Positions 8,122-11,846 of a stretch of DNA of 14,437 nt are shown piece after piece. The notes under the pieces are model-generated. The model saw nothing but the letters and a program-made list of their open reading frames with translations, made no database searches and was not told the DNA's origin. The stretch covers positions 1 to 14,437 of the forward strand of contig DKGO01000069.1 of assembly GCA_002453315.1 (NCBI GenBank), given 5' to 3'. A program made the translations under genes and the position numbers. Origin of the DNA: Caryophanales bacterium UBA6768 (GTDB lineage: Bacteria > Bacillota > Bacilli > Bacillales_D > Amphibacillaceae). Each line of letters begins with the position of its first letter. Position 1 is the first letter of the stretch.

Positions 8122-8643
8122 CTACCTATAGATTTTACTATTATTTAAGTCTATGTTTAAATTATAGTTATTTATCCAAATTTTAAGCCACATGATTTTC
8201 TGGTCCCGAAATCTTGTTCTTTCTAACTAACAAACGTCGTGGTGGGAGCTGTAACAAAGTCGTAATTTGCACCTATTTCAATGTTATCAGTTTTAATTTA
8301 AGAAATATTTAAAAAAACGACTTGATTTCTTTAAAAATCATGTATAATTTTTTTATCTGTAAGGGATATGTTATAAAAGGAATTTCTAATGATGTTGTCA
8401 TGCATACTGGAATTGTAGCATATGAACTGAAGTTAAATATCATATTTTAGGACAAAAAAAGCCATATAGTATCTTTCTTTGTTAAAAAGAATTTGAATTA
8501 TCATTGAAAAAACATCGCCCATTAATTTAATTGAATACTGTAGATAGAATGCAAATCAAATAGTAAAAAATAGTGAACATAGTATTCTAGCGGAATGAAT
8601 ACCCCTTTATTAATAGAACCCCTAGATTCCCCTATCAATATTT
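8122..8643. other. intergenic region without a convincing gene
   Basis: About 520 bp. It contains the FAD-gene promoter (8161-8190). A TATAAT on the plus strand (8343-8348) has TTGATT only 15 nt upstream and leads to no gene. A 36-codon plus-strand reading frame (ATG at 8341) lacks a ribosome binding site. An inverted repeat GTATTC/GAATAC lies at 8582-8602, and three CCCCT blocks fall between 8601 and 8633. No RNA gene was recognised. Confidence 0.4.
8161..8190 (-). promoter_or_regulatory. probable promoter of the FAD oxidoreductase gene
   Basis: The minus strand has a perfect TATAAT (8166-8161). The -35 region (TGGCTT or GGCTTA, 17-18 nt upstream) is poor, so the gene may need an activator. 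The leader to the start codon is about 30-40 nt. Confidence 0.4.
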
Positions 8644-8677
8644 AAAAAACTTGCACTCATTTTAACATGAATGCAAG
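8644..8677 (-). terminator. rho-independent terminator, displaced from the doeA-like gene
   Basis: The minus strand reads CTTGCATTCAT, loop GTTAAA, ATGAGTGCAAG, then six T. The 11-bp stem includes one G-T pair. It points leftward, away from the doeA-like gene. If the mobile unit 8715-10677 and one target copy are removed, the hairpin falls about 30 nt after that gene's stop, the normal distance. Confidence 0.75.
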
Positions 8678-8706
8678 CCTTCCTTTGGTTCTATTATTAT
8701 TTATCT

Positions 8707-8714
8707 TTTTATTT
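8707..8714 (+). repeat. 8-bp target-site duplication, left copy
   Basis: TTTTATTT directly abuts the left inverted repeat and is identical to 10678-10685. IS1595-family insertions make 8-bp duplications. The low complexity of the string is the only reservation. Confidence 0.7.
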
Positions 8715-8737
8715 GGCTCTGTTAAAGTTTGTTGTTG
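8715..8737 (+). repeat. left terminal inverted repeat of the IS1595-type unit
   Basis: It begins GGCTCTGTTAAAGTTTG. Aligned to the reverse complement of 10655-10677, the mismatches are at positions 1, 4 and 16-18 only. It lies 74 bp before the transposase start. Confidence 0.75.
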
Positions 8738-8810
8738 ATAAATGCTTTTATAGAACATACGATCTACAGCAAGGGGTAAGGTGGTATAAATAACGGAGTT
8801 GGTTAAGGAT

Positions 8811-9650
8811 ATGAAGGTTCCTGAAATTATAACAGCTATTAGAAGGCTAAGTCTAGGTGAAAAGCATCGGTTAATAGAATTTCTTATTGATGGGCTTACT
8901 TCTTTATCTGTAACAGGGACTGTACTAGAAGAGATTTCTGAACGGAAAAACAAAACATGAAATCAATGTCCTGACTGTGAATCAGTACATATTATTCGAT
9001 TTGGAAAATATACAACCTTAGTTGATGGCGAAGAAGTTGTAAAATAACGTTATCTCTACAAGTTTTGTAGACGTTTACAGACTTAACTAATACCGCTATG
9101 TACCGAACTCGCTATCTAGATAAATGGATTAAATTTATAGAGTATATGATAGAAGGCTATTCTCTTTGCTGCAAAGAAACGAGGTAAAATTAAAGAACAA
9201 GTATGTGTTTTGGTTGCGGGAGACCGTGATAAATTAACTTTTTCTTGTACTTCAGGTATGGGCAGGTTAACTAAGAAACAATTGGATAAGGCAATTGGGA
9301 ACAAATTATCAAAAGAAAATGTATTATGTACTGATGCCTGGCGAGCTTTTGGAGTCTATGCTGGTGAAAAAGGTATGGAAATATCAATTCAAATCAGACG
9401 GAAGATTCGACAAAAGGTCTTTATCATATTCAGAACGTTAACAGTTATCACAGAAGGCTAAAGTGTTGGATACAACGGTTTAACGGCGTGGCGACCATAT
9501 CTTGATAATTATCTTGCCTAGTTTCAAATCCTTGAGGTTATCCACCATTAAAACAGCAAAGTCACTATTAAGGACTTGATTATTCTAGGAAATCTTATAC
9601 AAAACATAGAAACGTATGATACACTAAAGTTTAGTAAATTCACAGTATGA
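8811..9650 (+). pseudogene. degraded IS1595-family transposase
   Basis: The remnant starts intact with MKVPEIITAIRRLSLG and shows the zinc-ribbon part (CPDCES, IIRFGKY). DKWIKFIEYMIEGYSL follows, then, after a gap, EQVCVLVAGDRDKLTFSC, GRLTKKQLDKAIG and VLCTDAWRAFG. The order and wording are those of IS1595-type ISXO2-like transposases. Damage includes a stop after ERKNKT with a frame change, a CAA-to-TAA change after GEEVVK, and another frame change near 9080. A deletion of probably 60-70 codons after EGYSL removes the first catalytic aspartate region. Further shifts follow GEKGME and the WIQRFNGVAT region, with stops in the tail. No functional enzyme can be made. The end at 9650 is the last stop in the tail frame and is approximate. 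Confidence 0.88.
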
Positions 9651-9791
9651 AATATAATGTTTTATACGGCACACGGGCCAGATTGTCGAATGGTTAGTTG
9701 GGGGATTTTAAAACCTATTCAAGTTTATTTTGTATTATTAATTGGAATAGTTTTAATTAAAGTTTGATTAAAAAACAAAGGAGTTTCATTG

Positions 9792-10565
9792 ATGCAGAAA
9801 AAATGGCGAATTAAACTTGTATTATTTCTTACTTTATTAGGTGCAATAGGCATTGTTGCAATCATTCCATATGAGATTACAACCTTAATGAACACGGAGT
9901 TTTATCAAACTAATTCAGAAGCGATACCAGTTTCACTAACTGTAAACTCAATATTTCAGATTGTCCTTTTGTTTTTATTAGTATTAATAGGTGTACGTCT
10001 ACAAAGGAGAACAGGTTTAGGCACCCCTAAACTGGAGGGTTTTGTTTACGAAAGGAAATTACAAAGCTTTTCAAAAAAGTGGCTGATAATTGGTATCTCC
10101 ATTACATTTATTTTTTCTTTAATCACCGTCCTGTTAGACTTATTTGTGTTTTCTTCTGTTATAGAAATACCCAAAGAACAAATCACCATTTGGTGGCATG
10201 GTTTACTCGCAATGTTTTATGGAGGTATAACGGAAGAATTAATGGTTCGATTATTTGGAATGACATTAATAGTGTGGTTATTAGCACGTATCACTAAAAA
10301 AGAAAAAGAAGAGATTCCTGACAGTTTTTATTACATAGCAATTTTTCTTACAGCAGTTTTGTTTGGGTTAGGACACTTGCCAGCGGCTATTCAAATTTTT
10401 GGGGAACTATCTACCATTATTGTTACACGAACCTTGGTGTTAAATGGATTATTGGGTCTATGGTTTGGTTACCTGTACTGGAGAAAAGGATTAGAATATG
10501 CAATCATTGCACATATGTCAGCAGATATATTTATACACGTGTTATTTATGCAGATATTTTATTAA
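9792..10565 (+). CDS. CPBP (Abi/CAAX) family intramembrane metalloprotease
   Basis: 257 residues with about 6-7 hydrophobic helices (for example 9-30, 51-69, 96-121, 136-166, 180-200, 206-228, 235-256). The family signature (PF02517) is complete: E148-E149 with R153 in ITEELMVRLFG, H195 in FGLGHLP, and H241 with D245 in IAHMSADIF. These are the residues expected to form the membrane-embedded active site. Bacterial members include bacteriocin self-immunity and signalling proteases; the target here is unknown. AAAGGAG at 9777-9783 fits the ATG at 9792 (8 nt) better than the adjacent TTG at 9789. It lies inside an IS1595-type unit, 140 bp after the dead transposase, and ends in its own terminator. 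It has no frameshift or stop, in sharp contrast to the transposase, which suggests selection for its function. Confidence 0.88.
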   Translation: MQKKWRIKLVLFLTLLGAIGIVAIIPYEITTLMNTEFYQTNSEAIPVSLTVNSIFQIVLLFLLVLIGVRLQRRTGLGTPKLEGFVYERKLQSFSKKWLIIGISITFIFSLITVLLDLFVFSSVIEIPKEQITIWWHGLLAMFYGGITEELMVRLFGMTLIVWLLARITKKEKEEIPDSFYYIAIFLTAVLFGLGHLPAAIQIFGELSTIIVTRTLVLNGLLGLWFGYLYWRKGLEYAIIAHMSADIFIHVLFMQIFY

Positions 10566-10608
10566 GTAATCGGACAAGATTGTTGCATAAAGAAACCTAT
10601 ATAACCAA

Positions 10609-10646
10609 ATGGGCCTCCAATAATAACTGGAAGCCCATACTTTTTT
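10609..10646 (+). terminator. rho-independent terminator of the CPBP protease gene
   Basis: ATGGGC-C-TCCA, loop ATAATAAC, TGGA-A-GCCCAT, then AC and six T. It is a strong hairpin with one C/A internal mismatch, about 45 nt after the stop and 9 nt before the right inverted repeat, so it belongs to the mobile unit. On the minus strand no T-tract follows, so it should not stop doeA-like transcripts. Confidence 0.8.
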
Positions 10647-10654
10647 CATAAAAA

Positions 10655-10677
10655 CAACACTGAACTTTAACAGGGCT
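10655..10677 (-). repeat. right terminal inverted repeat of the IS1595-type unit
   Basis: The minus strand begins AGCCCTGTTAAAGTTCAG and ends the mobile unit. The inner part GTGTTG lines up with GTTGTTG of the left end without gaps. Confidence 0.75.
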
Positions 10678-10685
10678 TTTTATTT
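10678..10685 (+). repeat. 8-bp target-site duplication, right copy
   Basis: TTTTATTT is identical to 8707-8714. It contains the last lysine codon and the stop codon (TAA, 10682-10680) of the doeA-like gene, read on the minus strand. Confidence 0.7.
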
Positions 10686-11846
10686 AATAAATAACTTTCT
10701 CTCAACATCAGATAAAACTTCACAGCCAGTTTCGGTGACAATAAAAGTTTCACTTATTTCAACACCATATGAATCTAACCAGATTCCAGGAATCATATGA
10801 AAGACCATATTTGGTTGCAATACTGTTTTATCCCCTGGACGTAAACTTGCTGTATGCTCGCCCCAGTCTGGTGGATAATTTAACCCTGTAGAATAACCAA
10901 TCCGAGATTCCTTTTCAAATCCACGACTTTTGATAGAATTTCTCCATGTCGCTTCTATTTCCTCACAAGTAACACCCGGCTTAATCATATCAATTGCTTT
11001 ATTTATGCCTTCCACTGCAGCAAAGGCAACAGCTTCCATTTCCTTCGTCGGCTCTCCTAACACTAACGTACGTGCTAATGGAGAATGATATCGGTGATAT
11101 GCACCAGCTAACTCAATAATCACTGGACCTTTTTCAAACGGGGCATCAGACCAGGTTAAGTGGCATGCATCTGTTTTATCTCCGGTCGGTAATAGGGGAA
11201 CGATTGACGTATAGTCTCCACCAAATTCTTCTGTTCCACTAATTTGTTTGTGAACAATATTAGCTACAGCATCACATTGTCTAACCCCTTGCTCAATACT
11301 TTCGATCCCTTTTTTCATGGCTAAAGAGGCAATTTCTGCAGCTTTCCTAACCAAAGAAATTTCTTTATCTGATTTGATAATTCTTACCCAATTAACAATA
11401 TTTGTTCCATCAACAAAACGAGCATTAGGAAGTTTATTCGTTAACTGCAAATAATTTTTAGCTGTGAAATAATAAGCATCAAATTCAGCGGCAATCACTT
11501 TATTAGCTAAATTTCTTTCTTCTAGCACCTTTGCAACGACATCCATCGGATGTTTTGTTGTGGAATGAACGTGGTCATCAGGATATGGAATCACATTTTC
11601 GTGTTTTAAATAGGTAGTATAATGTGCCGCCGTTTCATCGATGATTCTCCCTATCCAAATTGGTTCATCTTCATCTATTGCAACAATTAATAATTGATGT
11701 ACATAAAATGCCCAAGCATCATAACCACTTAAATAATTCATATTTGCTGGATCTGTAACGAGTAAAACGTCAATACCCTTTTTGGTCATACTTTCTTTTG
11801 TTTTTTGTAAGCGTTGACGAAATTCGTCAGTAGTAATTATGGACAA
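10680..11846 (-). CDS. doeA: M24-fold ectoine hydrolase-like protein (DoeA/EutD type)
   Basis: 388 residues with a creatinase N-domain (1-155) and an M24 pita-bread C-domain (160-388). Segments recalled from ectoine hydrolase DoeA/EutD are present: TDPANMNYLSGYDAWAFYVHQ-like (31-51), KHPMD (98-102), GGDYTSIVPLLPTG (209-222), HLTWSDAPF (229-237), GAYHRYHSPLART (248-260), YPPDWGE (324-330) and FHMIPG (349-354). As in that group, the usual M24 metal ligands are largely replaced (AYHRYHSPL instead of a DxxxxxxD pattern), while E245 sits in the active-site strand. The expected reaction is hydrolysis of ectoine to N-acetyl-diaminobutyrate in the cytoplasm. The start is TTG with AGGGGG 8 nt upstream (11855-11860). 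It has its own promoter (11925-11953), a CodY-like box and an internal cre-like box. The mobile unit abuts the stop codon. The M24 fold is certain; ectoine as substrate is likely, not proven. Confidence 0.78.
   Translation of the reverse strand: MSIITTDEFRQRLQKTKESMTKKGIDVLLVTDPANMNYLSGYDAWAFYVHQLLIVAIDEDEPIWIGRIIDETAAHYTTYLKHENVIPYPDDHVHSTTKHPMDVVAKVLEERNLANKVIAAEFDAYYFTAKNYLQLTNKLPNARFVDGTNIVNWVRIIKSDKEISLVRKAAEIASLAMKKGIESIEQGVRQCDAVANIVHKQISGTEEFGGDYTSIVPLLPTGDKTDACHLTWSDAPFEKGPVIIELAGAYHRYHSPLARTLVLGEPTKEMEAVAFAAVEGINKAIDMIKPGVTCEEIEATWRNSIKSRGFEKESRIGYSTGLNYPPDWGEHTASLRPGDKTVLQPNMVFHMIPGIWLDSYGVEISETFIVTETGCEVLSDVERKLFIK
11805..11819 (+). promoter_or_regulatory. candidate CcpA cre box inside the doeA-like coding region
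   Basis: TTGTAAGCGTTGACG fits the cre consensus at all but the last position and differs at two positions from the 14-base amyO core TGTAAGCGTTAACA. It covers nucleotides 28-42 of the coding region, about 100 nt after the predicted transcription start. Intragenic cre boxes near starts are known to repress by roadblock in Bacillus. Confidence 0.42.

Follow-up and report, generated by a model that had tools for sequence, protein, structure and literature searches.

Transporter insertion sequences (IS) of the IS1595 family consist of a transposase gene and one passenger gene between ends of 25 bp; they insert into AT-rich targets and are bordered by 8-bp repeats, as described in the excerpted text of one report (PMC5704250); the excerpt of a second also uses the term for this family (PMC9330008). 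Two described members, tISCpe8 and MTnSag1 (tISSag10), measure 1.7–2.0 kb and place a DDE transposase and a lincosamide-resistance passenger between 25-bp ends bordered by 8-bp repeats (PMC5704250, excerpt). The transporter IS covered in that excerpt carry resistance genes (PMC5704250).

Here, we describe an element in a 14,437-nucleotide stretch of DNA (the window) from Caryophanales bacterium UBA6768. The element is a decayed IS1595-family transporter IS with an unusual cargo, a gene for a CPBP (Rce1-like) intramembrane protease. It has the features of IS1595-type membership, namely a DDE transposase (as a remnant), inverted ends with an 8-bp duplication, and a passenger between the ends. 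It resembles tISCpe8 and MTnSag1 in this organization, whereas their resistance passengers, as given in the excerpt, contrast with its membrane protease cargo and dead transposase (PMC5704250). The transposase of ISSag10 is 37% identical, over 87% of its length, to that of L001, an IS1595 element on a Pontibacillus plasmid whose 347-aa transposase served for comparison. Passenger-free IS1595 elements share the 8-bp duplications and the PF12762 transposase, a model that scores above its cut-off in the transposases of two relatives of the window element, L001 and L031; they differ from the window, which has a separate gene between the transposase and the right end.

Structure of the element and its insertion site

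The element proper occupies positions 8715–10677 (1963 bp). The first-pass annotation had given 8707–10685, a span that correctly describes the enclosing structure but not the limits of the element, as it adds both copies of the duplication. The left end, GGCTCTGTTAAAGTTTGTTGTTG, matches the reverse complement of the right end at 18 of 23 positions, and the duplication TTTTATTT is exact and abuts both ends. As a chance control, inverted pairs matching at 18/23 or better and spaced 300–4000 bp apart were collected over the whole window; among 48 such pairs, an exact 8-bp direct repeat lay outside just one, the pair belonging to this element. TTTTATTT is itself common in the 14.4 kb window (7 forward and 4 reverse copies), so the repeat by itself would be weak evidence; what matters is that it abuts the element on both sides.

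Table 1 Features of the element and its surroundings in the window
Feature	Position	Strand	Basis or remark
Left 8-bp target duplication copy TTTTATTT	8707..8714	.	Sequence
Left terminal inverted repeat	8715..8737	+	18/23 against right end; resembles left ends of relatives
Dead IS1595-family transposase gene	8811..9647	+	tblastn of L001 transposase; stops, frame shift, residues missing
Ribosome-binding-site-like AAAGGAG ahead of CPBP start	9777..9783	+	Sequence
Intact CPBP (Rce1-like) intramembrane protease gene, passenger	9792..10565	+	ORF from ATG, 257 aa; PF02517
Possible decayed palindromic site, weak	10555..10599	+	Best R1 match in the window, over CPBP stop
Terminator-like hairpin and T-run between CPBP and right end	10609..10647	+	Sequence
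Right terminal inverted repeat	10655..10677	-	Paired with left end, 18/23
Right target duplication copy TTTTATTT	10678..10685	.	Holds doeA stop codon, 10680-10682
doeA-like ectoine hydrolase gene	10680..11846	-	TIGR02993 470.5 bits, below cut-off 613
Terminator-like hairpin, behind doeA if the element is taken out	8640..8684	-	Fold of joined flanks

The transposase gene survives as a remnant that matches residues 1–88, 89–120, and 186–347 of the L001 transposase, with 60–81% identity over the three stretches. Residues 121–185 (L001 numbering) are missing, a frame shift lies at positions 9071–9074, and at least five stops interrupt the frame. The missing residues include MDETY, which we take to be the site of the first catalytic aspartate. 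One fragment of the remnant scores 33.5 bits against the NCBIfam model NF033547, the cut-off of which is 75.

The CPBP open reading frame (ORF) matches PF02517 with an E-value of 1e-12 and retains E148, E149, R153, H195, H241, and D245, residues that are invariant in 34 aligned sequences (the window's own included) and that correspond to the EExxxR, H, and HxxxD motifs of CPBP/Rce1-like proteases. Comparison with four homologs (L048, L049, L019, and L017) yields dN of 0.17–0.26 and dS of 1.8–2.0 (0.172 and 1.96 for L048), differences that are mainly silent; dS is near saturation here (and not computable for L018), and the values are not specific to the window's branch. The pattern fits a conserved protein. 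Judged by its sequence, the protein may act as a protease or in bacteriocin immunity; PADLOC returned no match. The hairpin behind the gene forms ten pairs at 10609–10638, with one C.A mismatch on the plus strand, and is followed by ACTTTTTT; a terminator pattern scan reported it on the minus strand only. The inverted ends with their exact duplication, the dead transposase, and the complete protease gene that the first-pass annotation had claimed are all borne out by these observations.

The closest relatives of the CPBP protein (P0002–P0008; 80–93%) are known as proteins, mostly on short contigs. None of the CPBP homologs in 28 fetched loci is enclosed by IS1595-type ends like those of the window, and no CPBP relative was found in viral contigs. 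Searches for a second copy of the 1.96-kb unit found none in a plasmid collection, where 6 records matched in transposase parts only, and no match in a phage collection.

The stop codon of the doeA-like gene lies inside the right copy of the duplication, so the doeA reading frame is whole. For the hairpin at 8640–8684, a 60-nt stretch gives a folding energy of −21.1 kcal/mol, and a T-run follows. Joining the flanks computationally places this hairpin and T-run just behind the doeA stop, which indicates that the element landed between doeA and its apparent terminator. For doeA relatives, the 150 bases behind the stop were viewed in six cases. No empty site in a close strain was found among 159 genomes of one family: the left flank gave short matches in 12 of them (best E 4.6e-5), and the nearest doeA relative in the set is 73% identical. 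A CPBP relative (E ≤ 1e-30) is present in 7 of the 159 genomes and doeA (E ≤ 1e-100) in 86; two genomes contain both, on different contigs, and doeA (E ≤ 1e-10) was found in none of the 28 fetched CPBP loci. Conserved synteny of CPBP with doeA, which had been named beforehand as an observation that would speak against the passenger reading, is thus not seen in these sets. Elsewhere in the window, two adjoining, similar-looking carboxypeptidase-like genes lie on the minus strand at 99–2928, the first of which matches PF00246.

Related elements and their passengers

A related transposase was matched in 16 of the 159 family genomes and in 24 of 398 genomes drawn from the same class, one of which is also among the family's 16. 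The distinct places with a related transposase number 48, including L001, L002, and L011. Both ends together with the 8-bp repeat (at most one mismatch) were located at 20 of these places; the repeat is exact in 17 and has one mismatch in 3 (L036, L084, and L096). Both ends without a matching 8-bp repeat were located at L074, L080, L081, L083, and L092. The profile used for the ends was built partly from the same elements; its scores for ends of L031, L077, and L091 are low.

In 17 of the 20 relatives with ends and repeat, the space between the transposase and the right end holds an ORF of 50 aa or more on the same strand. The remaining 3 are L001, with 33 aa; L075, with 34 aa that look broken; and L082, with none. 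L082 is a distant element of 1170 bp whose right end lies 45 bp behind the transposase, and it is the only one of the 20 that lacks space for a passenger. An intact relative ending directly behind its transposase had been put forward as evidence against a passenger; with 17 of 20 relatives carrying an ORF of this size, we judged that the objection does not hold. In the window and in 14 of the 20 relatives (a count made without a shuffle control), the right end is preceded closely by a hairpin that has 8 or more pairs and no more than one mismatch and that often takes the form GAACTTCCA...TGGAAGTTC. The position of this hairpin means that the passenger is framed by the transposase and the hairpin.

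The passengers themselves are diverse. We compared 29 of them by blastp: that of the window, the 17 just described, and 11 more from places where no repeat was confirmed. Three pairs are similar at E ≤ 1e-3 (L027/L095, L042/L078, and L083/L091), and no pair at this threshold joins two of the 17. Passengers scoring above Pfam cut-offs are NUDIX (L027), DUF4362 (L029), CPBP (L031), metallophosphoesterase (L036), GNAT (L076), alpha/beta hydrolase (L079), RibD_C (L097), and a WapI-like immunity protein (L084). The others in the scan, which covered passengers apart from those of L001, L032, L077, and L096, had no score or fell below the cut-offs. Outside the 20, L030 holds an Imm5-like gene and L095 a NUDIX-like gene that is below NCBIfam cut-offs.

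Among the intact relatives, L031 has a transposase and a CPBP gene between its ends, the layout that the first-pass annotation had proposed to look for, with a CPBP unrelated to that of the window. Its transposase frame is open (62% identity), its duplication TTTCATTT is exact, and its 219-aa CPBP gene matches PF02517 with an E-value of 3e-20. BLASTP gives no meaningful similarity between this CPBP and that of the window (E 0.99). As the two cannot be aligned by BLASTP, CPBP genes entered the slot at least twice.

The first-pass annotation had also held that a protease is not a standard example of IS1595 cargo. This needs qualifying, as passenger genes as such belong to a named kind of element, the transporter IS (PMC5704250 and PMC9330008, both in excerpt). 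New to us were CPBP as cargo and the range of genes carried within the clade. A search of the open-access literature returned no earlier report of a CPBP passenger in an insertion sequence, and we do not claim its absence from print.

Two further loci deserve mention in their own right. At the end of an Enterococcus faecalis plasmid (L002:1–3071), a transposase of the same clade (90%) is accompanied by a slot with a dfrD gene between palindromes; a 390-aa minus-strand ORF there is, by eye, another putative transposase. L011:11420–12274 (855 bp) derives by deletion from a related IS1595 element and has an exact 8-bp duplication; it lies about 2.7 kb from a CPBP relative and does not enclose it.

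Palindromic sites and gene arrays in Bacilli

The slots of several relatives hold palindromes of about 30 bp: type A behind the transposase (loop GGGGCAG) and type B behind the passenger (loop CGGGTGC). Palindromes of the same kind punctuate same-strand gene arrays in these Bacilli. The half pattern TTCAACTAACGGG has 30 matches in 40 genomes versus 4 for its reversed control; one full-palindrome pattern, searched as an exact match, is rare and occurs in 3 of 159 genomes. A reading of the palindromes as RNA structure was rejected: their paired columns show no covariation beyond that of shuffles. A search of Rfam with 10 palindrome sources gave no match above the gathering score and one sub-threshold match (E 0.87). 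On these two grounds, we treat them as palindromic DNA.

Sites were searched with three models, of which R3 was built from array sites only and R1 and R2 partly from IS loci, so that matches of the latter two in IS loci are not independent. R3 was run on the window and on 35 of the 48 transposase places, the 13 omitted being mostly distant elements with ends not located. At E ≤ 0.01, it found slot sites in 8 of these 36 loci (L076, L002, L037, L043, L047, L028, L036, and L092). Five loci have two R3 slot sites; in these, site A follows the transposase, and the gene and then site B come after it. The window has no R3 site, and across the CPBP loci that were searched the model gave a single match, at E 0.31. 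The best R1 match in the window has an E-value of 0.042 when the window is searched alone and 0.46 in a larger search. At L097:306–1107, two palindromic sites frame a neighboring minus-strand stretch; they are strong with R1 and R2 (one is a seed of the models) and weak with R3. A palindromic site lies about 35 bp from the start of the related IS1595 element of that locus, at 1143–2999.

With R3 at E ≤ 0.01, at least one site was found in 93 of the 159 family genomes, with a maximum of 37 per genome, in a search whose stricter filters lose weak matches. Same-strand sites cluster between short genes in several Bacilli genomes (L180–L198; for example, L181:2792–12026). Ten arrays contain 86 distinct sites, of which 85 have the prevailing orientation of their own array and 5 lie inside ORFs; these arrays were chosen for their clustering, and the counts draw on 100 matches down to E ~0.005 with overlaps merged by best score. 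Among 29 B sites, 22 have an upstream neighbor on the same strand at a median distance of 18.5 nt, and in 8 an A site comes next within 160 nt. Ten genes picked from one array all have Pfam matches, which include glyoxalase, ASCH, LysE, ACT_7, and Cass2 (PF14526), the last a domain named for integrons. In a viral contig (L118:3285–4095), two same-strand palindromes enclose two genes that by eye encode a putative XRE-type regulator and a membrane protein.

The minus-strand gene at L144:12–869 encodes a 285-aa Xer-like tyrosine recombinase and is one gene removed from a palindromic site; Xer-like recombinases occur near sites at L215 and L220 as well. One genome has two broken copies within arrays, and an A site lies about 100–120 nt upstream of them on the opposite strand. 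We take this layout, a recombinase divergent to the array with a site upstream, to resemble that of integrons, and we would liken the array palindromes to attC sites. The array recombinase is present in 6 of 16 genomes, and its link to the sites is imperfect: one genome (G109) has 20 A-type sites without the recombinase, and another (G120) has a broken copy without sites. The array recombinase scores below the cut-offs of the XerC, XerD, and integron-integrase models, and none of 20 genomes contains an integron integrase above the TIGR02249 cut-off. Given these scores and the uneven distribution of the recombinase, we call the arrays integron-like rather than integrons.

The resemblance extends to the slot, which, like integron cassettes, presents single, short, varied genes in one orientation beside palindromic sites. 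Integrons differ in having the IntI integrase, for which none of the 20 genomes exceeds the TIGR02249 cut-off. For Firmicutes, the excerpted text of one survey records a single complete integron and a small number of clusters that lack an integrase (PMC9024848). We recognized no earlier description of integron-like arrays in Bacillus or Bacillota in the open-access literature. It is tempting to speculate that Bacilli hold an unrecognized integron-like system, in which short same-strand genes alternate with B sites, often right after a stop codon, and A sites ahead of the following gene, in places beside a divergent Xer-like recombinase, and that IS1595 elements carry its single cassettes, including the CPBP gene of the window; we regard this as a tentative proposal that could well be wrong.

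The same evidence bears on how the CPBP gene came to occupy the element. The slot could be a landing place for integron-like cassettes moved by the Xer-like recombinase, and the gene could have arrived in this way. The R3 sites found in the slots of 8 of the 36 IS loci, the order of transposase, A, gene, and B in five of them, the B-like R1 match over the CPBP stop (E 0.042), and the gene arrays bounded by like palindromes all point in this direction. However, R3 detects no site in the window, its one match in the CPBP loci (E 0.31) lies away from the gene, 28 of the 36 loci have no R3 slot site at E ≤ 0.01, and the R1 and R2 matches in IS loci are not independent. We therefore consider arrival by this route unlikely.

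Origin and significance of the unit

The unit is very probably a relic of an IS1595-family transporter IS that was inserted as one piece with its CPBP passenger and whose transposase then decayed. That the protease lies inside the element and arrived with it is the most likely reading, as the first-pass annotation had suggested; the ends and duplication, the slot ORFs in 17 of 20 relatives, and the separation of CPBP from doeA elsewhere support it. On the other side stand the searches that yielded neither a second copy nor an empty site, the CPBP homologs of 28 loci that lie outside such ends, and the five related places with both ends but no matching repeat. The original layout would have comprised the left end, the transposase, the passenger with its own ribosome-binding site, the terminator-like hairpin, and the right end. 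A transposase acting on the two ends would have placed the whole stretch from one to the other, as a single piece, in AT-rich DNA directly after the doeA stop codon, with 8 bp copied in the process. The transposase would later have decayed while the CPBP gene stayed open. CPBP would now be a fixed chromosomal gene, and further movement would require a related transposase to act on the ends. The gene slot that follows the transposase is exchangeable; relatives hold other single genes in it. We infer transposition as one unit, this order of decay, and possible movement in trans.

If the IS had instead arrived free of cargo and CPBP had inserted later in place, the two would need no shared history, and the decay of the transposase but not of CPBP would be accommodated. 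Against this, the passenger occupies the slot used in relatives, inside a hairpin placed as in relatives, and among the 25 of 45 inverted pairs listed, none suggests that CPBP was inserted separately, with borders or repeats of its own; later acquisition is improbable. Still less credible is the reading that CPBP was already resident, that an IS1595 element without cargo landed upstream of it, and that the right end and duplication are coincidental: the region is AT-rich, TTTTATTT is frequent, and the distant L082 does end 45 bp behind its transposase, but of the 48 comparable pairs in the window just one has an exact 8-bp repeat adjoining it, the right end of the element resembles those that lie behind passengers in relatives, and CPBP was not found near doeA elsewhere.

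The clade shows how a minimal IS of about 2 kb with one exchangeable slot carries genes for enzymes, immunity-like proteins, and membrane proteins among Bacilli. It also shows that a passenger gene can outlive the transposase. The exchangeable slot of the clade and its possible tie to the arrays deserve follow-up above this single copy. If the IS1595 elements do carry cassettes, the presence of a different gene in each of them would be explained; and if the slot shares the sites of the arrays, insertion sequences would be tied to an integron-like system in bacteria where integrons are almost unknown.
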